Positions 50,712 to 63,480 of a stretch of DNA of 64,000 nucleotides are shown here, piece by piece (position 1 is the stretch's first letter; each line of letters opens with the position of its first letter). This DNA comes from Absidia repens. Taxonomy: Eukaryota; Mucoromycota; Mucoromycetes; Mucorales; Cunninghamellaceae. Below the pieces are notes generated by a model, which saw only the letters and a program-made list of their open reading frames with translations, was not told the DNA's origin and did no database searches. The stretch lies in contig MCGE01000013.1 in the NCBI GenBank assembly GCA_002105175.1, positions 558,001-622,000 on the forward strand. The letters are read 5' to 3'. Made by a program: the position numbers and the translations under genes.

Positions 50712-51054
50712 AATATTTAAAAGACCAAGAGTAAAAGAGACAGAGAAAACAGCAAAAAAAAAAATCTGTGAATGATTCAATCCCCGTCCGCTGGTTCCCT
50801 TCTGCTGTAGCCTCACTGTTATCCATTCCACTGCCGCTTTCTTTTTTTTGCCCAGTCTCCCAGTGGCAATGAACAACAGAGATAAAGGAAGTGTTTTCTG
50901 ATACTCTTTTATTTGATAAGATATGTAAGCTACAACTAAATAATAATGATATAATAATAATAATATATAAATAAAAAAATAAGAGGAAAAGGAGGCCGTT
51001 TTTTTCCTATTCTAACTAACGAAGTATTCCACAAAAATTAAAAGAGAAAGACGC
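50712..51054. other. short intergenic region
   Basis: Promoter side of the Rrn5-like gene and 3' flank of the PhoD-like gene (both minus strand), AT-rich with TTTATT near 50910. No gene is seen. Confidence 0.5.
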
Positions 51055-53900
51055 CTAAGGACGATGTTGAGGCATGACAAAGCCACCAGGACCAGCATTA
51101 TCAGGTGGAGGAGCCTGATAATGCGATGATTGCTGCTGATGTTGTTGTTGTTGTTGCTGATAGCCCGTATCGCCCGATCCAGGGAAAGCGTCTTTGTATT
51201 GATAGCCAGCGCCCGAAGAAAGAAGGTGGTTTTTACCTTGAGTATGCAAATGGTACCCAGCTTGACCAAACACCAATTTAGGAACATCCAACAAATACCC
51301 CATGGTGCCCTTCTTGCCCACTTCCTTTTCGGCTTGAATCCAGAAATTGATTTTGCCAGTCGACTCGTCATAGTACCCAGCACAATAGTTTCGGCATCCC
51401 ATCAGTTTTTTGTTTTGGCGCTACATAAAAAAAAACACTTTTGAGTTCGTACGTTTCGTAAGCAAACAAAAAAAAAAAAAAAGCTTACTGTATTTCCATT
51501 GGGAGATTTCTTAAAAATATTGTACATTTTTTCTTCAGTGTTGCCATTGAACGTGATATAAGACGAATTTTGATTTAAAATCGTCAACAAAGCCTGAGGA
51601 GGTGGCCTATATAACAAAACAGAGAGAAGTTAGAATATACCGATATATAAAGTTATCATACCCCACCCCACACCCAGAACTTACACATTAACAATAGCAC
51701 TGGAGATGATTTGCACCATGAAGTAAGGATCACCTTCTTCCTTTTCTTTCATATCCTTCGAGTAGAGTTTACCAGCACCACAACAATGCACCTATTATAA
51801 TAAATACATATACAATAAATTCACTGAGCTTTCTGATCACAGTCCTTTATACTTACATCGCCACCAAGAAAAGATACTCGCACAGATTTTTGTCGAGCAT
51901 ATTGTTGCAAATTTTCAATCAATCGTTTGCGTTCCACTAAATGATTGCCTGCCGTCCAATCTAGAAAAAAAAAAAAAAAAAAAGAAAGGGATGAGAATCA
52001 CCATCATACTCCACCATACGCATTTTCTTCTTTGTTGGTTTCTGAATAACTTACGGTCATTCATATCATCCAAAAGTTCAGGATCACCATTCCACTTGTT
52101 CAAACTACCACTGATAGCATCCCCAAGGGCTCCTGTTTTCCCAGCCAGCGTCGCCAAATTGAATCCTGCTGCACCGTCCATGGCTTTTTCGAACAGAGTC
52201 AAACGTGGATAAATCAGAGGGACACCTATAAAATAAAACAAAACAAAAATAAAAATAAAAAAAAACATGAGTCTCCTCATCACAATTACCTATTTTTTTC
52301 TTCCTGTGTATCAAATGGCTTTACCTGTAGCAATTAGCAAATGTTTTACTGTACTTGGTAAGCGAGTATGAAGTGCATTGAGAACAATATCATAAGTCTT
52401 GGGTTGACAAATATCATGCTTGGTACGTTCACCACGGCAATCCAATGACAGAATCCCAATATCAGGTCCAAGGGTGGTGACCACACTGTTACAGGCAGGT
52501 TTTGTACCACGAATCAAGCCATGACGTTCCGCCAATTCCACCGTCGTATGGTGTTGGAAAAGATAATAAAATCGACATGCGTATCTAAAGAGAGCTAAAA
52601 ACAAAACAAAACAAAAATGAGTTTATAGATGTATATATATATGTGTGTGTGAATAAAACTTACTTGTAAAACAATGGGCATTTTGCATTTCAGTAGGATA
52701 CGAACCATAACCGTCGATAATATCCTAGCAACAACCAACCAATTTAAAAACAAAGAGTCAGTTAGTAACAAACATTCATCCGATTCCGTCTGCCCCTGCC
52801 TCTTTATCCACTTTTTTACTTACATGATCATCCCACATATTGATGGACGGAATCGAGGCAAAGGCCTTCGCAACCCAAGGGTTTTTTTGTTTCCTGAAGA
52901 AAAAAAGAAAAAACGATGGGGCATTAGTCTCATTTTATGCACATCTTCTCTCCCCTCAACTGGTCTGTTGTTATTGCGCTTACCCAAAGTTATCCACATA
53001 ATTGTTGAAGTAAAAGTGTTCCATACCATCGATCATTTTGGGCGGCAATGTCATGGCGAGGCGTTTCTTTGGATCCTTTTCATCGTTCCATGGTTGCATA
53101 AAGTCCTCCTTGATGATTTTATCTTGATAAAGCTGATCTCCACCACCAATCAAGACATGGAAGGGCATGACCTGATGACGATCCAACACATCTTGCCAAA
53201 GGGGATGATCGTTGCCACCGAATTTATCCTTGATATCTTGGGGAATGTCCGAGAAGCCATTACACGAATAAAACATAAATCGCATCGATTCTTGGATGGC
53301 TGGTAAATAGAAATCATGCGTCTGACCGGGCAAGCTGGGCGTGGAATACAAGACATGTTGGGGTTGTGTTGTCAATGGCAAGTTGAGTTCGTATCGCCAG
53401 AAATGGTAGTGGTGACGGAAACTGTCCAAACGTTCGGCGTGGCATTCAAGGACTTGACTGCGTCCAGACACATCCGATTTGAGTTCAACACGTAGCGGCG
53501 GGGCATGTGTTTCGTTCGACACAATCAAGCACGACCCGCGCCACATCCGGGCATGGTAATCCGTATCAATGTATCGAAGTAAGGGCCCACACACCACTTC
53601 CGTTGGCCCTGATTGTCGATGAAGTACTTGTTCTTTCAAATCAGATAAATGAGGTCGATGAATACTGTGTCCACCGAGATGGAAACTGCCATGTTGCTGC
53701 ATTGGCTGAGGATGAGGATGAGGATGATGCTGTTGTTGTTGTTGTTGTTGATAATGACCAGAATGGAGATTCATCTGCTCTAGGTTCATATCGTTGGGTG
53801 ACCCATAACCCTGATGGACAGGAGCATTGGTATTTTCAGGGGCACCATAACCCTGAGCTGAAGGATAGTGCGCTGGAGGAGGAGGGGAATAAGGATTCAT
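51055..53900 (-). CDS. PhoD-like phosphatase domain protein
   Basis: Predicted metal-dependent phosphoesterase of the fungal PhoD-like group. ATG at 53898-53900. About nine exons give roughly 735 residues. The first ~100 residues are Pro/Gln/His-rich with repeated HQGYG/GYGSP motifs. The catalytic domain shows GPLLRYIDTD, MPFHVLIGGGDQLYQD, HFYFNNYVDNFG, NMWDDHDIIDGYGSYP (DDHD metal ligands), LGPDIGILSLDCRGERT and VSFLGGDVHCCGAGK (GGDVH metal ligands), the usual order for PhoD-like enzymes. The C-terminal part is a beta-rich extension (YDESTGKINFWIQAEKEVG) with a Gln-rich tail. There is no signal peptide or membrane helix, so a cytosolic role is likely. Exon edges beyond the first are approximate. 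Confidence 0.88.
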
Positions 53901-54621
53901 TGTAAGAAAATACAAAAGGAGTGGGAAAGAAAAAAGGAAGAGAAAAAAAATTGTACCTTGCCAAAAAAAAAAAAAAAAAAGAGGTTATTTCGGCTGCTTG
54001 GGTGGGAGTGACAATCTGGACTTGAATTGGATTTTTATAGCTGGCTTCGCACAATCCATAATAACAAACCAACCAGTAATATTTCGTTTACAACTAAGAG
54101 AGCCGAGCTAAATAATGGAAGTCAATGATTTGATATAAAGTACGTATGATGATCATCATCCTACCATCAAGAAAAAAAAAAAAATCCACTAGTGATTTCA
54201 TCCAATCCGCCATCTTTCATTTAATGTGCCACCTTTGGTTGATTTTCAGTTTGCGTCGCACGAACCATTAACCCTAAAACGGGGTAAAACACAGTGTCTG
54301 TGTAATCCAGGTACTGTATTTTCTTTTTCTTTGCAAATGGGTACTGTGTATATCTTAGAAAAAAACAGAATCATGAGTACAAGTCATTTCACATATCACA
54401 TACTGTATCACATGTCCTATTTCTTTTTCTTTTTCTTTTTTTTTCAGTCATTTCATATTCATTTGTAATAAAAAAAATAATAGTCAATTTTATTTAAAAT
54501 AAAATAACATGGATAAATCATCTAAATAAAGACAAAACTAAAATACTAATCACTACTATATGAAGAAACAACTATGTAAACTATGTACAATAAATAATAC
54601 TAATAATAAAGGTTCCATCTA
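53901..54621. other. intergenic between PhoD-like and LRR genes
   Basis: Promoter side of the PhoD-like gene and 3' flank of the LRR gene (TTTATT at about 54489). It includes A and T runs (about 53959-53978, 54422-54443). No gene is seen. Confidence 0.55.
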
Positions 54622-56796
54622 TCAATCTTGTTCACTACCACCAGCAGCTGCGACCCACCAATCATGTTCTTCTTGCTCAGCACTGGACCGGAGGATGGGT
54701 TGCGACTCGGCACGGTGGACAGACACTTTAGACTTTTGCTTGCCGTGGAGCCAACATTTGGTAGAGCAGAAGCGCACGCGGTGCACTACGGCCGGATGGC
54801 CACCGTAACTTTTGACCTGGACAGACGTCAGCCATTCATTGACAAACGGCGCTTGGCAATAGACACACCGTCGGTTGTTGTTGTTGGAGAGATCGTTGGC
54901 CAAATGTGGAGGAATCATGTGCAAAGGAATCGTCTTGAGGTTGTTGGTGCAAGATAGGATCACACGGGTCGCTAATTCACGCAGCGATGGCAATAACATA
55001 TTGGTAGTGGGTGCCATTTCTTGCTCCTCTTCATCATCATCATCATCATCGTCACCACCATTACCATCCATGATTGCAGGACTATCATCGTCATCATCAT
55101 CATCATCGTCATCATCAACATCAACCATCATTGCCTCCATCAATAAGGATCTTGAAAACATCATATCGTCATCGGCACTTGCAGTAGAGTCAGGTGTACC
55201 TGTGGGTGATGGTGGGGTAAGTTGTCGGTCACGCCTCGATCCCTGCACATTCAATTGTTGCGCCATATATGATAATTCCCGATCAATCAATGCATCGCCA
55301 TCATCATTATTGTTGTTGTTGTTGTTGCCAGAATTAGCGTCGTCATCGTCCTCGTCGTAAAATACTAGTGGTGACTTGATATTGGATGAAGAGGTGGAAG
55401 GTGTAGGTGCAGGTGTGGCCAAGTAAACTGAATTGGTTATAGGTGGAGGTATAAATTCAGATCCAACCAAAGACACATTGGAAGATTGTTGTTGTTGAGT
55501 GGTGGTAGTGGATCGTGAAGTCGATGGTGAGCCTAAGCATCCATTTCCCTGAGGTCCACATTGATGAAGAAGTCGTCGTTGTCGCTGATGACGTGGTGAA
55601 GGAGAGGGTGGTGGTGATACATACCCATAATACGAGGAAGAAGTGATGGGCAAGGCACGCATGGTCATTTTTTTCAAAAGTTGAGCATAGGCATCCGAAG
55701 GATTGGTACGATCATCATCACAGTGGCCAGGGAGAGTCAGTGGGTTTCCAGTGATCAACAAGGTAGTTTTCATCATGCGTTCCAAAATATCAGCAGGCAT
55801 AATACATAACAAGTTTTCGGAAATGTCCAATAACTCCAAATGTTCGAGATCTACCAAGTTCGCAGGTAAAGTGGTCAAATGATTTTTGCTGACATTGAGG
55901 GTTTTCAAGCGCCAGCAGGCACGGCCAAGACTTGCGGGTAAGGAATCCAATTGGTTGCGAGATACGTTGAGGTGGATCAACGATGGAATGGTAAGTTGGG
56001 TTGGGAGTGTCGATAGTTGGTTGCATGAGAGATCCAATTCTTCCAGACAGGGCATGGCGATGATGGTTTCGGGTATCCTGGTCAATAAATTGCCACCATA
56101 ATAAACGGAGCCCAACTGCAAATGACGCATGTGTTTCCATTGAGCCACATTCGGGGTCAAGTAATCGATCCTATTGCCAGCAACGGACAGGGTGACTAGA
56201 AGGGGGAGTTGTGAGGGTAATTCATCCGGAATGGTATAAAGTTGGTTCTGGGATAAGAGCAGGACCTCTAAGTGCGTCAGGTGGTATAATTCCGTGGTGG
56301 GGAGGTGGGTCAGCAGATTTGACGATGCATTGAGAGTGCGCAACTGAGTAAGTTGGCCGATTTCTGACGGTAATGAAGTGAGTTTGTTGCGTGATATATC
56401 CAGTTCAGTGAGTCCATCAAACCAGTTTTGATATTGTTGGTGCTTCAGTAAGGGGGCAAGGGGTGTGGCTGTTGAGCCGGCGGAACCGAGTTGTTTTGCG
56501 AGGTCAGCCGTGGTCAGGTTTTTCCGTCGTAACATAAGCAGCCCCGCACCATGAATATCCTTGTGGTTGCGCTGTATCTTGACGTTGCCTTTGGATTCCT
56601 TCTTTCGCTGACGGTGTTTTTGTTTATTGGTGGCAAGCCGAATGTGGCCTCCTAAGGGTGCTAATGTAGGATCGTCAATACAAGATTCAATATCGGCAAT
56701 AGGTGAATGGGATGGCAACCAAGGTTGAACATGGTCATACTTGTCGGGAGGTAACACTCCAGTCAAGAGTTTCCCACCCAGTAAATTGGGTAACAT
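54622..56796 (-). CDS. leucine-rich repeat protein with C-terminal Cys-rich zinc-like module
   Basis: Single exon, 724 residues. Residues about 140-370 hold nine to ten short LRRs of the SHOC2/SDS22-like kind (LTELDISRNKLTSLPSEIG, LEELDLSCNQLSTLP, LKTLNVSKNHLTTLP). After a disordered middle with Asn and Asp runs (55037-55150), the C-terminus has CVYCQAPFVNEWLTSVQVKS and VRFCSTKCW: a CxxC and a CxxxC spaced to bind one zinc, around Trp and aromatic residues. No kinase, GTPase or cyclase domain is attached. I do not recognise a named fungal protein; a scaffold role is the likely guess for LRRs of this type. The absence of introns in a 2.2-kb CDS is unusual for this window. Confidence 0.75.
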   Translation of the reverse strand: MLPNLLGGKLLTGVLPPDKYDHVQPWLPSHSPIADIESCIDDPTLAPLGGHIRLATNKQKHRQRKKESKGNVKIQRNHKDIHGAGLLMLRRKNLTTADLAKQLGSAGSTATPLAPLLKHQQYQNWFDGLTELDISRNKLTSLPSEIGQLTQLRTLNASSNLLTHLPTTELYHLTHLEVLLLSQNQLYTIPDELPSQLPLLVTLSVAGNRIDYLTPNVAQWKHMRHLQLGSVYYGGNLLTRIPETIIAMPCLEELDLSCNQLSTLPTQLTIPSLIHLNVSRNQLDSLPASLGRACWRLKTLNVSKNHLTTLPANLVDLEHLELLDISENLLCIMPADILERMMKTTLLITGNPLTLPGHCDDDRTNPSDAYAQLLKKMTMRALPITSSSYYGYVSPPPSPSPRHQRQRRLLHQCGPQGNGCLGSPSTSRSTTTTQQQQSSNVSLVGSEFIPPPITNSVYLATPAPTPSTSSSNIKSPLVFYDEDDDDANSGNNNNNNNDDGDALIDRELSYMAQQLNVQGSRRDRQLTPPSPTGTPDSTASADDDMMFSRSLLMEAMMVDVDDDDDDDDDDDSPAIMDGNGGDDDDDDDEEEQEMAPTTNMLLPSLRELATRVILSCTNNLKTIPLHMIPPHLANDLSNNNNRRCVYCQAPFVNEWLTSVQVKSYGGHPAVVHRVRFCSTKCWLHGKQKSKVSVHRAESQPILRSSAEQEEHDWWVAAAGGSEQD
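55037..55150 (-). repeat. acidic coding repeats
   Basis: Two Asp runs (GAT; ATC units on the plus strand) in the LRR gene, separated by a short SPAIMDGNGG-like spacer. Confidence 0.8.
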
Positions 56797-57355
56797 TTGG
56801 TAATATAGGCGGGGAGGGGTAATATAATAAATGAATATAGGTAATGTGTAATAATATTAAAGGAAAAGAAGAAGAAAAAAACGAAAAAAGAATGAAAATG
56901 TTTACAAAAACAGATAAATAGCGGAATTGGAATTAAGGCAAAAAAAAATCTGATAATTATTTTTCGCACTCTATGATTGGTTAACTGTTCAATCAGATAC
57001 AAGATGCCCCCTCCTTAGGATCAAATGAGTGAGACCCCCTTTAGCCTCAAACATTCTAGTTTATTTGTTAATTCCGTTATCTTTTCCATCAATGATACAC
57101 TGCATCTTCGATGGTTATTCCTTTTTTCGTTTTTTTTCGCTTGCGAAACATTATCGATTTTGTATTTAATTTTAATCCCAGTTGATTATTTCTTTACTTT
57201 AACGCGCGATGACCGGGTTAATATTGATCAACAAAAAAGATTCCTCCAGAGTACTGCAAGCGGCGTTTAAATATTTTGCCAGTGGATTGATTTTTGATTG
57301 CCATAATATAAAAAGGAATAATGTTCTTTTTTTTTATTCTTTACTTTGTACAAAA
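56797..57355. promoter_or_regulatory. divergent intergenic region
   Basis: 559 b between the starts of the LRR (-) and arrestin (+) genes. AT-rich; T runs precede the arrestin ATG (57326-57335). No gene is seen. Confidence 0.5.
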
Positions 57356-59479
57356 ATGAAACATTTTGCGACTGAATCTGCCTTGACTCTTCTTCTTGAC
57401 GAACACAAATATTATTTCCGTGGTGATCATGTAAAAGGACGACTGGTGATTCATCCATCCACTAAATCACAAAAGTTCGCTGGTATCCGGTTGACTTTTT
57501 ATTGCCTTGTCAAAACTTACATCAACTCGAAAAAGAAGGATCACCACTACTTTTTTAAACATGTATATCCATTACCTCTTCAACCTCGTATTCTTAAAGT
57601 GGGAAAAACATATACCTATCCTTTTGACTTTATCTTGCCTACTGAAATCGCTTTACCAAGTTGTACTGAAGTAAGTATACTGAGCGCCCAACCCCAACCT
57701 TTTTCCTACAGTTGAATGAATTTCTTATACGAAGTTTTTTTTTTTTTTTTTTTTGATGTTCTTTATAGAGTGATACAAATTCTGGTGGGATTATTGAATA
57801 TGTGATCAAGGCAACGATGGAACGATCCTCCCCTGAATGGCCTTCAGTACCAACTACCACCTCTCTTCATGTGCCTGTTTTGGAACGTCTCAATGTCAGT
57901 CAAACGAAATTTTTGGAACCTGTGTGGGATAGTGTCACTTGGGACTCGACTGAAACAACTAACACACATCAGCAAGACGAAGATAGTAACGATACCCATG
58001 TAGATCAGGCTGAACTCTCAGCATCTATACCTCATCAAGGCTATATTAGAGGTAAAAAAAAAAAATCATTCGGACATTGAAAACACTAAGCATGATTTTT
58101 GGAACTCACTTTTTATTAATTTTTGTATGAAGGGCAAAAAATACCCGTTACTGTGGATATTCGTCACTTTCAACCATACCAAAAAACAAAGGGATTGACC
58201 ATTTCGTTAATTCGATGTACCCGTGTTTTATGCAAAGAAAAGTAAGTATACACCATCATAAAAATATTAACAAAATTCTGGGTTATTAATGCTCCTTTTT
58301 GATCTCTTTTTTTTTTTATTAATATGGATTCATAGAGCCTATCTTTTACCACCAACAATAATCAGCTCAGCCAAAGTAGACATTGATGTGAAGAAAACGA
58401 GCGGCCAAACCATCACACAATCCCTTCTGATCCCACGTCACATCTCGCCTACCATCAATCTGAATGCGCGGCTTTTACAGGTGGATTACCGCATTGAAGT
58501 CAGGGCCAATTTGAACCCACAAGATCATCACCACCACAGTATAGTAGCTCCATGGACGACAGTGCCTGATTTGGGATGTATGTATTTTGAGCTTCCCGTG
58601 GTTATTGGCACGCTCCCTTTTAGCACCACCTCATTGTGCGTACCGCCCGATATATTGGACCCAAAATTTGTCAAAGGTGTCAAACATGTTGAACAAGACA
58701 ATCTACCTCGCCCAAACGCCTACCAGTTACCATCATCATCATCATCATCACAATACAATCGCAATTCACGACGATTATGTTCGCTTACACCGATGAATCT
58801 ATCTTCCAGTCTGCTTGATTTGTATGCTTCAACCAATATACTTTGGGATCGTTTTACACCTTCTTCTCCAACAACCAAGACCCAATCTTCAACGCTGGCT
58901 GTTTCATCCTCCACTTCATCAACAACCAAAATGCATAAATTATCACCACAGTCATCCTGTTTCCGTCTGACGCTATCTTTGGGTGAATCCTTTGATAATT
59001 TGGTCCAATCTAGCATCAACAAACAACAGCATCGGACCTCCTTGGACTCTACCGACATCTTCAGCCACTCTTTTCCTTTGTTGACAGCTCGACGTGCTAG
59101 CGAACCCAACACACGCCAACCCCTCAGCAATACAAGGGAACGCACCTCGTCATTGCCAACTGTATACCGACCTTCCCCTCCTCCTGCTCCATTGTGCTAT
59201 AAACCGGACAACACCTCCGAAGGGTTCGAACTCGACGATGGATCCTGTGACAACAACACAGACAACTACTCTGATGACGACGACGACGATGATGATGATG
59301 ATGACCTAGCGAATGGTTGTTTCATGTACATTGCACCCAATGGTATGGACAGTGCGGGACCTTTTGAAAAACCTCATGAAAAAATTGCTGATGTTGACCT
59401 TGGCTCCGATTCGGAGGATGACGATGATGACTTTATCTCCATTTTGGCAAAAAGGGAAATCAGTCTGGTGGCAATCTAG
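57356..59479 (+). CDS. alpha-arrestin (arrestin-domain) protein
   Basis: Predicted adaptor linking membrane transporters or receptors to ubiquitin ligases. Exons 57356-57670, 57769-58051, 58133-58241 and 58336-59479 sum to 616 residues. The arrestin N-domain spans exons 1-2 (ALTLLLDEHKYYFRGDHVKG, RLTFYCLVKTYI, YPFDFILPTEIALPSC, GIIEYVIKATMER). The C-domain follows (IPVTVDIRHFQPYQKTKGL, VDIDVKKTSGQTITQSLLIP, LNARLLQVDYRIEVRANL, FELPVVIGTLPF). The remaining ~250 residues are Ser/Thr/Pro-rich with an Asp run near 59275-59306. A proline-rich patch is present, but no clear PPxY motif was seen, so coupling to a Rsp5-type ligase is unproven. The start is the ATG at 57356. Poly(A) signal is at 59578-59583. 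Confidence 0.85.
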
Positions 59480-60001
59480 GTCTCTCAAAAAGAGGCAAAG
59501 GGTATCATCTTATTATTAGTGGGAGTAGCTTTAGCTTAGTTTTAGTTTGAGTTTTACTTATAGATGATTATTTTGCCAATAAAAATAAAATGTGGGTTGA
59601 TTCCAAATTTATATGCAAATCGACATCTCATGACTTTTTTTATGGTTACCAAAAGGGGGGTGCGAGCGTTGATTGGGTTACTGTGCTACCATGTTGCTTA
59701 TTGCTAAAGATTTACCCATATTATTATTCTTTTTTTTAATTTGTTATTGGTGTCCTTTCATTGTTTTCTATTATTCGAGAATGTGTCATGGTTGGTTTTG
59801 GCAAGGGGACGGGATATGTCTATTTAAAATAGCCTGGGCTTCTGTTGCTTAGGTTGTACAGTATGTACATTGCACTTGCACCTGTGGACAATTTTAAACA
59901 CCGGTTTGTGTGGGGGTCAAGCAGAAACAGGCGGCTTTTTCTTCCTCTCCATATTTTTTATTTTCTTCCTTTATCTAGAAATATATCACTCCTTTTTTTT
60001 C
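59480..60001. other. tandem intergenic region
   Basis: 3' flank of the arrestin gene and upstream of the ERT1-like gene. The last ~65 b are T/C-rich on the sense strand. No gene is seen. Confidence 0.5.
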
Positions 60002-61759
60002 ATGAATCCATCAATCCGTGAATCACACTCAGGCGATCAAACGTTGAAGCGCAAACGTAGAAAGGTCTCGACGGGTAACACACCAAAAAAAACAGGGCAA
60101 TGCAATGCTTCTTTCTCCCATCACCTAACCATCCCAATCTTCTTTTTGATCGAGTAGTTTGTATTTATTGTGGACAAACTGATATGACTTTTGACGATAT
60201 CAATATAAACAGGCGGCCTTGCCAAAGGTGTCTCAAACTAGTACCTGGAAACAATTATCATGACGAGCTAGGGGCAGCAGCAACAACGACAACAATGACA
60301 GTAGCAGCAACTGCCGTTTCTTCTTCCCCTTCAATACATACATCCACAATTACTGTGTCTTTATCTGCGCCACCAAGGATTCCGTTGGAAACTCGGGACA
60401 AATGGGGTAGGTTCACCATCTATGGTACCTTTTTTTTTTTTTTTTTTTTTTTTTTTTGTGGAATCACTGTAGGCGTGGGAAATGAATGCTCATCTCTATC
60501 TCTTTTTCTTTTATGTAGCCGTACCCTCCAGCAATGAATCGGTAGGCAATGAAGTGGACGTATTAAAGTAAGGTATCAGTTACATTCCAATTGCATGATT
60601 TTTGTTTGATTTATTGTTTTCAACCAATCTAGTGAATTTTTGACTGACGTTTCTAACAACAACTCCAGGGAACACTTTTACTTGACGGCCGCGGATCCCA
60701 AGGATGGTAATATGGAAGATCGATTAAATGAAGTGGTTAATGCGAAATACAAGGCGGGGTTTTTAAAGCCGTATAACTATGTGAATGGATACGCAAGGCT
60801 ACAACGTTATATGGACCAACAGTAAGTAAAGATTTGGGAACAAATATTATATACCTATGGTGCTTCTCACTTACAATTGATAAAGTATGTCACCCGATAG
60901 TAGGCATCGAATATTGAACGTCATGGGAACATTTCGACCAACATTTAGAGACGTTGCACAATCACTTACTGATGTGGATCTCATCTTAGTGGAAGAAGCT
61001 TTCGACCGACTCTTATTGGTAATACACGTGAGCAATGCATGCAAATCCCAAACTCCGCTCACACTTTTTTTGTTTTGGGGCGCTATAGGACTATGATCGG
61101 GTGTTCAGTGCCATGTCCATTCCTGCTTGTTTGTGGCGCAGGACAGGGGAAATATACAAAGGGAACAAGGAATTCGCTACGTTAATTGATGTTTCGGTGG
61201 ACGATTTACGTAATGTAAGTTATATGAAAAAAAAAATGGCATGTCATGAGTGTTTGACAGGACTTTTGTTTCATCTTATTTTACAAGGGACGACTATGTA
61301 TCTATGAAATCATGGCTGAGGAATCCGTTGTGAACTATTGGGAGGTGAGTTTCAAAAAGGAATTCCAGAACAAAAAAAAGAGGATGCTGATACTTATAAT
61401 GCGGATGTATTTAGAAATACGGCAATATAGGATTTGATGCACGACAAAAAGCTGTCTTGACTTCTTGTTTGATCCGTCACCAAAAGAAATCAATGCTCAT
61501 GTCTTGTTGCTTCTCATTTACTATCCGACGAGACAAGTTCAATATGTAAGTAATTAGCAAAGAAATGGTAAATTATATAGATGAAACTCATTTTCTACAC
61601 TCTTTCTACATGTCCGTTTTTTTGGTGGGCGATATAGACCGGTATGTACGACGCTCGAGCCTCGAACCAGAAAAAAAATCGACAAATATGGCTAATGTTT
61701 CCTTTTTATTTTAGACGATCATTGTTGGCAACTTTTTGCCCATTCAAATACAAAACTGA
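60002..61759 (+). CDS. ERT1/AcuK-like PAS-domain protein with degenerate Zn2Cys6 cluster
   Basis: Related to the gluconeogenesis activators Ert1/AcuK. Ten exons join in frame to 351 residues: 60002-60074, 60158-60406, 60519-60567, 60633-60821, 60886-61018, 61089-61214, 61288-61344, 61415-61545, 61638-61641 and 61715-61759. A basic stretch (LKRKRRKVS) leads into the expected Zn2Cys6 region, here CIYCGQTDMTFDDI, then RRPCQRCLKLVPGNNYHDE. The family pattern has Cys where this protein has Phe (cysteine 3) and Tyr (cysteine 6), and there is an extra INxx-type insert. The middle has GTFRPTFR. The PAS domain is well kept: DYDRVFSAMSIPACLWRRTG, GRLCIYEIMAEESVVNYWE, FDARQKAVLTSCLI, CFSFTIRRDKFNIP and TIIVGNFLPI. 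The domain and frame are intact, so the gene is not an obvious pseudogene, but DNA binding by the usual cluster looks impaired. Poly(A) signal is at 61848-61853. Confidence 0.8.
61638..61641 (+). other. predicted 4-nt micro-exon (ACCG)
   Basis: Flanked by GATATAG (acceptor) and GTATGT (donor). It supplies the third base of an Ile codon and a Pro codon, joining KFNI to TIIVGNFLPI. Direct joining of the neighbouring exons would shift the frame and lose the Pro that Ert1 relatives have before the VIVGNFLPI-type ending. Confidence 0.6.
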
Positions 61760-63480
61760 TACCGCCACCCTCATTTACACACACATCGCATACACTTTAG
61801 TCATCTTTTTTAAATGAACATTTTTATTTTATAACATATTTTTGTATAATAAACAACAAATTTTATACAATAAAAACCAACCCAAAGCCCGTCTTTATTG
61901 TGATTTATAGCAGTTTTTTTTTTTTTTTGTCTTCTCATATTTTATGATATCATATACTGTATTGCAAAAAAAAAGATTTACTGGATGTTGAAGTGTAGCT
62001 TTCCATGAAATTAGACACCCCACTATTTGCACCCAAATAGGCGACCCCTTTTGCTTAGCTGATTTCAGTTTGGGCTTTGTGTTCTTTTTATTATTATTAT
62101 TATATCACACCCAAAAAAATAAAAGCGAGAATATATTATCGGGGGGGGTTGGATAAATACACTATGTTTAGCCTAGTAAACGTTACATTGGCGACTTGTT
62201 GTAGGTTGATTGATATGGATAGTAGAGTGGGAAGATGTGCATGTTTCATATTGAGTAATTTAGAATTGTCACCCAATCGCTATGCCTCAGATAGATGGGT
62301 GAGGAAAGTGGTCATAGGTATGCTAAAAAGCAGTGCAAAATGTTCTATAGCGACACCTACAAACACATCATGACATGCATTCATTTAAACGATTATTGAA
62401 ACTGGAATATGGTAATGTTGATAGTATATGGTCTAAATCTTCAACCAGTCACTGGGTCTCTGTGGGAAAAAGTAGTCGTAATGAAGTTAGAGTGAAGATT
62501 TGGTAGGGAGCTCACAAAACATTTATAATAGCGACATTGTTCATTATCTGATAGACCTCAGGATGGTTAACAAAAAAAAAAAAAAAAAAATACTGAAGCA
62601 TATTGGTAGATACTGAAAATTGAAGACGAAGGGAGGAGGGGGTTCACTGTAACAGTAGATCTAAAGGGGCGATAGTAAAACTGGGATCTATCACACAAGG
62701 CATGAGAGAGACAATTGGGACATTTTTCATTGAAGCAAGTAAAAAGAGATATATTTTATTCAGATGTAAATAAATAACATGGACAACTAATACCAAACTA
62801 AGCTAATGAAGACTCAACAATGGTGCTTTCAGATCCTAGATCCAAAATGAAAGGGTATCCCCATGTATGTTGTATTCCCTGATCTGAAAATCCTTCTAAA
62901 TTAGTCCTGAAGCTAATCCAAGATCACTGCAATGGCGAAAAAAAAGAGGGAAGAAAAAGAAAAAAATAAAAGGAAGTGCGAAAAAATAAAAAGTAAAACA
63001 CGTGGTCGGGATTTGAATATACATTTTTTCTCTGGAGGACTTTCGTTCGAGTTGTTGCTTGATCCTTCAGCCAAAATCGACCAACTTCAGTTGCCTAAGA
63101 CCAAAAAATTTTTATATAAACAAAAAGCATCCAAATCGCGTAACTTTTTCCCTTTTCATTTTCATTAATATATTCCTTGGTTAAGCATTTTATAAGTAAA
63201 ATAAATATCATTGGCATTTTCCATGAGACCCGTTTTTTTTTTTTTTTTTTTTTTTTTTACGTTCTTGCTGAACTGCACCATATCATAATCTCACGATCAC
63301 ATTTCCCTACAAACAGCCATACACAGAATAATATTTTTTATTAACAGACCAAAAGACAAATAAATATAAGTGTGAAATAGCTATGCTAAGATATAAAACC
63401 AATCAGTCAAAAATGAAGGGGAGGGGGGATAAGATGTCACCTAACTACTAGCTACTAATAATTCAATCCAATATAATCCA
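61760..63480. other. convergent intergenic region with dispersed repeat copy 4
   Basis: Between the ERT1-like (+) and dihydroxyacetone kinase (-) genes. It holds repeat copy 4, a poly(T) run at 63233-63259, and a 40-b stretch (63060-63099) similar to 30301-30340. A 98-codon non-ATG frame at 62077 is not convincing. Confidence 0.55.
62590..63030 (-). repeat. dispersed repeat family, copy 4
   Basis: Read on the minus strand: ATTCAAATCCCGACCACGTG, a T-rich stretch, CAGGACTAATTTAGAAGG, CAGGGAATACAACATACATG, CCCTTTCATTTTGGATCTAG, GAGTCTTCATTAGCTTAG, TTGTCCATG, CATCTGAATAAAATATATC, CTTTTTACTTGCTTCAATGA, AATGTCCCAATTGTCTCTCT, CTATCGCCCCTTTAG. It matches copies 1-3 in the same order. Edges are approximate. 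Confidence 0.8.

Follow-up and report, generated by a model that had tools for sequence, protein, structure and literature searches.

A duplicated AcuK/AcuM-family PAS gene of Absidia repens with a degenerate zinc cluster and a conserved core

Gene organization

The window, by which we mean the whole stretch of 64,000 nucleotides that was analysed, covers positions 558001-622000 of one contig (C5) of the Absidia repens genome, and the genome surveyed comprises 47.4 Mb in 79 contigs. A ten-exon gene, spliced by hand, occupies 60002..61759 of the window on the + strand, the strand to which all its parts described below refer, and encodes a 351-residue PAS protein of the AcuK/AcuM family with a degenerate Zn2Cys6 cluster. 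All nine introns are of the GT-AG type and the 351-codon frame is open, with a single stop at its end; the ten-exon frame is therefore intact, as the first-pass annotation had it. The database twin of the gene is P0001 (BCR42DRAFT_416645), a public model of 350 residues with an identical cluster, which lacks a 4-nt exon (ACCG, 61638..61641) and is otherwise identical to ours. With this exon, bounded by GT-AG introns, the protein reads the family-typical NIPTIIVGN, and without it P0001 reads NMTIIVGN; most of the 27 aligned relatives have NIPT followed by IVGN, and the copy of the gene on contig C31 possesses the same 4-nt exon. The exon is also missing from the public model of that copy.

Just N-terminal of the cluster, the spliced translation and the alignment reveal a basic stretch, KRKRRK (residues 16-21, 60047..60064), which has been kept and is a possible nuclear localization signal. 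The C-terminal core (residues 137-351, 60670..61756) is under purifying selection, as judged by dN/dS against the C31 copy and by comparison with A. cylindrospora. It contains the ERT1/acuK-family PAS domain (PAS_13, PF24990), the best stretch of which (residues 243-315, 61122..61483) scores 80.7 bits in Pfam against a cut-off of 27, and the PAS domain has thus been kept, in agreement with what had been read from the sequence earlier. The upstream gene (57203-59479), which by our own reading is presumably arrestin-like, contains acidic and low-complexity runs, and a copy of it also lies upstream of the C31 paralogue.

The degenerate zinc cluster

Gal4-type zinc clusters (Zn2Cys6, PF00172) follow the general pattern C-x2-C-x6-C-x(5-12)-C-x2-C-x(6-8)-C, and the basic residues after the second cysteine contact DNA. 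In the relatives the cluster reads C-x2-C-RRSHMT-C-D(D/E)GRP-CQRC-x8-C with few exceptions, whereas the spliced window cluster (residues 26-58, 60160..60258) reads, with its flanks, ...KVST-V-CIYC-GQTDMT-F-DDININRRP-CQRC-LKLVPGNN-Y-HDEL. Four cysteines are kept (C26, C29, C46 and C49). Where the relatives keep Cys3 the window protein has F36 (codon TTT, 60190-60192), and where they keep Cys6 it has Y58 (codon TAT, 60256-60258), so that the two cysteine losses first noticed, each of them a single base away from TGT, are borne out. The basic residues after Cys2 are also gone, with GQTD at residues 30-33 as against RRSH in the relatives; measured against the paralogues on contigs C31 and C67 and at C5:820k, the additional losses are R30G, R31Q, H33D and R52L. 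Between Cys3 and Cys4 the window protein carries a net four extra residues. It consequently has neither of the two marks of PF00172, the six cysteines and the basic residues after Cys2.

Pfam returned no Zn_clus match for the window protein at E <= 10, a threshold to be read with caution, as few matches beyond about 0.1 pass the HMMER filters; P0006, P0094, P0003 and P0122 pass the Zn_clus cut-off. The window exon is likewise absent from the 66 Zn_clus matches found in the genome (E <= 0.001). Some metal binding is possible, since the four remaining cysteines persist as two CxxC pairs. AlphaFold2 models built on alignments of 27 and 68 chosen family members gave a mean pLDDT of 40.8 and 53.0, respectively, too poor to judge the fold.

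The longer loop between the two knuckles coincides with an intron site. All three intact AcuM-like paralogues in the genome have their knuckles separated by an intron, which follows GATGAAG, GATGATG or GACGACG; comparison with the paralogue DNA reveals that the window gene instead has ATCAATATAAACAGG (60199..60213), five codons where the relatives have one. This looks like the 3′ tail of a lost intron, left behind after a deletion and now translated, a reading taken only from its position and its acceptor-like end. Clean removal of the cluster by alternative splicing was considered and rejected, since joining exon 1 to the relic acceptor leads to a stop. A three-frame translation of 60000-61800 revealed no alternative exon with six cysteines.

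Relatives and the A. cylindrospora orthologue

The union of two protein searches (best 120 of 1339 and best 120 of 2171) gave 128 distinct relatives. Six cysteines are present in 108 of these 128, in 107 by the strict pattern and in P0084 with one extra residue, and a cysteine is replaced in two only, namely P0001 and its A. cylindrospora orthologue, P0002. The models of the remaining 18 do not span the whole cluster: five start at a Met before Cys3, nine skip an exon, P0085 breaks off, and P0105, P0106 and P0117 start later. In nine of the listed relatives (P0089, P0092, P0110, P0112, P0114, P0115, P0118, P0119 and P0126) the model runs KVTH-GRPC, as though the short exon with the first three cysteines had been skipped in frame. 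In the C31 copy, a gene of 11 exons, this exon is 42 nt long; either gene predictors overlook so small an exon, or skipping it may give rise to zinc-less isoforms.

P0002 reads MAFDNSTIDRRPCQRCLKLIAGNKYYDEL, with the same Phe, the same Tyr and an insertion of equal length, and in a tree of 44 chosen relatives it is the sister of the window protein (support 99/95). Alignment with an orthologue, which the first-pass annotation had proposed as a check, thus recovers the change of Cys3 to F, that of Cys6 to Y and the insertion in a second species, and because all three are shared, the damage to the cluster is genuine and of some age. The P0002 model begins after the first CxxC, and that pair is therefore seen in A. 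repens alone. P0117 of Chlamydoabsidia padenii was considered as a third zinc-less orthologue and put aside as too weak: it groups with P0001 and P0002 at 66/82 in one tree, and its model starts past the cluster. A protein search with residues 14-66 alone yielded two candidates and found only P0001 itself.

A relic of the same sequence lies on the minus strand at C31:225964-226195. It is 233 nt long and corresponds to window 60119-60340 (identity 73%, 12 gap positions), covering the end of intron 1 and exon 2 of the window gene; it contains stop codons and is non-coding. Phe stands in place of Cys3, the insertion is present, and there is no Cys at the place of Cys6, from which it follows that at least the loss of Cys3 and the insertion are older than the relic copy. 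With its stops and gaps, the relic provides an example of genuine decay of this sequence.

Paralogues and the duplicated block

The genome search for an intact paralogue, another check proposed at the outset, was successful: AcuM-like copies are found at C31:69.6-71.8k, C67:330k and C5:820k, and the C31 copy (P0006) keeps all six cysteines. Using the open frames of window 20001-64000 and of the 18 kb downstream as tblastn queries against C31:45000-91999, we found a colinear block in the same orientation (window 51.0-61.5k and C31 60.2-71.6k) of about four genes, as counted by match clusters. The window gene and its C31 counterpart are thus copies from a block duplication. The extents of the duplicated block are 51015-61759 in the window and C31:60215-71808. 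A short open stretch at window 62801-62923 recurs in the C31 stretches compared (58.1k, 73.3k and 81.5k), positions that are also hit by C5 frames lying downstream of the window; it is probably a dispersed repeat.

As to the age of the duplication, in the best 20-row tree of the core the C31 copy falls outside the group formed by the window copy and those of other genera (85/87), which at face value would speak against an Absidia-only pair. Neither a clade of the window, P0002 and C31 copies (p-AU 0.13) nor one of all Absidia and Chlamydoabsidia copies of the AcuM-like group (p-AU 0.124) is rejected with the same 20 rows.

The genome contains eight AcuK/AcuM-family loci in two groups. The first consists of the window gene, C31:70k, C67:330k and C5:820k; the second, which we take to be the AcuK/ERT1 side, consists of C20:28k, C67:1710k, C1:1723k and C12:280k, with core identities to the window protein of 37-41%. 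The window protein is 53% identical to P0081, which one source labels cwt1. In Table 1 of a review, the homologues of AcuM are Cwt1 and Rds2, and those of AcuK are Ert1, Zcf11 and Pas2 (PMC12719309). From this one label and that table, the window gene is probably on the AcuM/Rds2/Cwt1 side. What it shares with ERT1/AcuK is the name of the PAS family only, and the original description of the gene as ERT1/AcuK-like should rather be AcuK/AcuM family, more likely of the AcuM/Rds2/Cwt1 side.

Selection on the cluster and the core

Over the 215 codons of the core, the window and C31 copies give dN 0.049, dS 2.1 and dN/dS 0.023 (NG86), a ratio that is rough because dS is near saturation. The corresponding values for the 45 codons of the cluster are dN 0.26, dS 0.82 and dN/dS 0.32. 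Among the intact copies the cluster ratio is 0.13-0.14 between C31 and the other two, and 0.03 between those two; 0.32 against 0.13-0.14, on 45 codons, amounts to a modest rise.

Comparison of A. repens with A. cylindrospora shows different residues at 9 of 29 positions in the cluster, 28 of 74 in the linker and 4 of 215 in the core (Fisher p 7e-7 for cluster vs core), and the intact pair P0094/P0095 differs at 0/29, 10/124 and 0/214, respectively. In the zinc-less lineage the cluster thus changes roughly as fast as the linker, and the core stays conserved, which argues that constraint on the DNA-binding domain has been lifted and the remainder of the protein retained. With the C67 and C5:820k copies as reference, 14 of the 44 comparable cluster sites have changed in the window copy only, three in C31 only and five in both. 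The figures for 214 core sites are 9, 3 and 38; since lineage-specific core changes number 9 in the window copy vs 3 in C31, the constraint on its core may be partly relaxed.

The first-pass annotation held that the gene looks kept rather than decaying, and we agree: frame and splice sites are intact, the core has a dN/dS of 0.023 against C31, and divergence from A. cylindrospora in the core is limited to 4 of 215 residues, findings that do not describe a pseudogene. The strongest of the alternatives is nonetheless slow decay, whereby a redundant duplicate is becoming a pseudogene and its core appears conserved for the shortness of the time since it became useless. The existence of an intact paralogue, the nearly linker-like drift of the cluster (9/29 vs 28/74) and the larger number of lineage-specific core changes are all in keeping with such a course, but the low core dN/dS, even with its near-saturated dS, is not, and neither are the interspecies differences of 4/215 in the core vs 37/103 outside it. 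Moreover, the gene has acquired no stop or broken splice site, though some 5% of all possible single-base substitutions would create a stop codon in the coding sequence of the C31 copy, and the true exon relic at C31:226k has both stops and gaps. We therefore regard slow decay as unlikely.

Possible function

The explanation that we prefer, and consider probable though well short of assured, is that the window gene is a duplicated regulator of the AcuK/AcuM family (probably of the AcuM/Rds2/Cwt1 side) which has lost Gal4-type DNA binding and is kept for its PAS/C-terminal core, its function depending on a partner. We base this on the changes at Cys3 and Cys6, the insertion and the changed loop, all of them common to P0002; on the concentration of cluster changes in the window lineage (14 vs 3) while the core stays held; and on the retention of an intact C31 copy by the duplicated block. 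Having lost two of its zinc ligands together with the basic residues in its first knuckle, and with the loop between the knuckles lengthened by an apparent intron relic, the protein would no longer form a binuclear zinc cluster or make unaided contact with CGG triplets. It would pair through its PAS core with intact family members and, as a subunit that does not bind DNA, tune its partners, either as a co-regulator or by diluting the active heterodimers. The kept core may serve partner binding, and the sequence does not separate a co-regulator from a brake. PAS-mediated dimers, dominant inhibition and a part in gluconeogenic control, all raised in the first-pass annotation, are hypothetical.

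Factors of the AcuK/AcuM type are heterodimers that act on sites of the CCG-N7-CCG type. According to the review, AcuK and AcuM act as heterodimers and are impaired by PAS mutations, and pairing mediated by the PAS domain is advanced there as a hypothesis, for which an AcuM-Rds2 PAS chimera provides genetic backing (PMC12719309). Cryptococcus Pas2 with its fifth cysteine mutated is described as still nuclear and failing to complement (PMC8092316), which makes it unlikely that a zinc-dead member could replace its parent unaided.

AcuM, Rds2 and Cwt1, regulators of gluconeogenesis and the alternative oxidase, resemble the window protein in PAS_13 and in the order of cluster, linker and PAS core, and their Mucoromycota relatives resemble it also in the core, at the C-terminus and in the basic stretch that precedes the cluster. 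What sets the window gene apart from them is that it is without two of the six cysteines, the first-knuckle basic residues and the intron between the knuckles. Dal81 of yeast and TamA of Aspergillus nidulans differ from it in that their clusters are present but dispensable, and neither is known to have a PAS domain. The likeness lies in a regulatory function that is independent of the zinc cluster (as summarised in PMC10169451). FarD of Aspergillus niger is comparable as a paralogue of zinc-cluster regulators (FarA/FarB) that has no cluster, is conserved in the order Eurotiales and must be present if the fungus is to grow normally on ferulic acid (PMC10512302); the portion of that paper describing FarD names a PF04082 regulator domain and no PAS domain, and the FarD cluster is absent whereas that of the window protein is degenerate. 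By analogy, the window protein would fit with FarD, Dal81 and TamA as a subunit working through partners. Our literature searches for a zinc-less PAS-family member of the AcuK/AcuM type, or for that family in Mucorales, produced nothing to the point. The zinc-less and intact duplicates of one genome offer a direct test bed for the function of the PAS core without DNA contact, and the same comparison bears on whether duplicated zinc-cluster regulators turn into partner subunits or brakes.

The surviving cysteines might also form a converted zinc site, a folded mononuclear Cys4 centre (C-x2-C-x16-C-x2-C) with a new mode of binding to protein or DNA. The lost cysteines are exactly the two outside the CxxC pairs, and both pairs remain; this pattern is, however, one of the 15 ways to lose two of six cysteines and would arise by chance in about 7% of cases, and the first CxxC is seen in one species only, the A. 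cylindrospora model starting after it. A. repens and A. cylindrospora have RRPCQRCLKL in common without a single change (0/10 differences vs 9/19 elsewhere in the shared cluster; Fisher p 0.011, for a stretch picked after the data had been seen), but the first knuckle has been stripped of its basic residues and the remainder of the cluster is drifting. We find a site of this kind quite unlikely.

A reading that overlaps in part with the one we prefer is that one zinc cluster per heterodimer is enough, in which case the protein would sit on promoters together with an intact AcuK-like subunit and activate normally. AcuK/AcuM-type proteins are indeed described as heterodimers (PMC12719309), and a truncated Dal81 without the six cysteines is reported to work, Dal82 supplying the DNA-binding domain (as summarised in PMC10169451); the failure of the Pas2 fifth-cysteine mutant to complement (PMC8092316) is contrary to it, and we hold it to be improbable. 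Sequencing or gene-model error, to which the 4-nt exon absent from the public model might lend colour, deserves almost no credence in the face of the same cysteine losses and insertion in an independent species, the absence of an alternative six-cysteine exon from the three frames of 60000-61800 and the stop created when exon 1 is joined to the relic acceptor.

An AcuK-like locus on contig C12

Loss of DNA binding with retention of the core, as we propose for the window gene, may have a parallel on the other side of the family. At C12:277.5-281k, an AcuK-like locus, the core segments are open and share 71-80% identity with the corresponding parts of the group's three intact members, and none of the + strand frames contains a CxxC from 277,240, where by our reading a WD40-type frame ends, up to the core. 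Synonymous sites at this locus are saturated against its kin, so that the open frames and the conserved core are what speaks for its function. C12:277500-281200 is apparently a second zinc-less family member, on the AcuK-like side. It is conceivable, although we give the idea little weight, that Absidia possesses a DNA-binding-free shadow of AcuK-AcuM, in which the products of the zinc-less window gene and the C12 gene would form a heterodimer sensing the same PAS signal off DNA, or each would remove an intact partner from promoters. If so, the shadow pair would constitute a built-in brake on the control of gluconeogenesis and the alternative oxidase.
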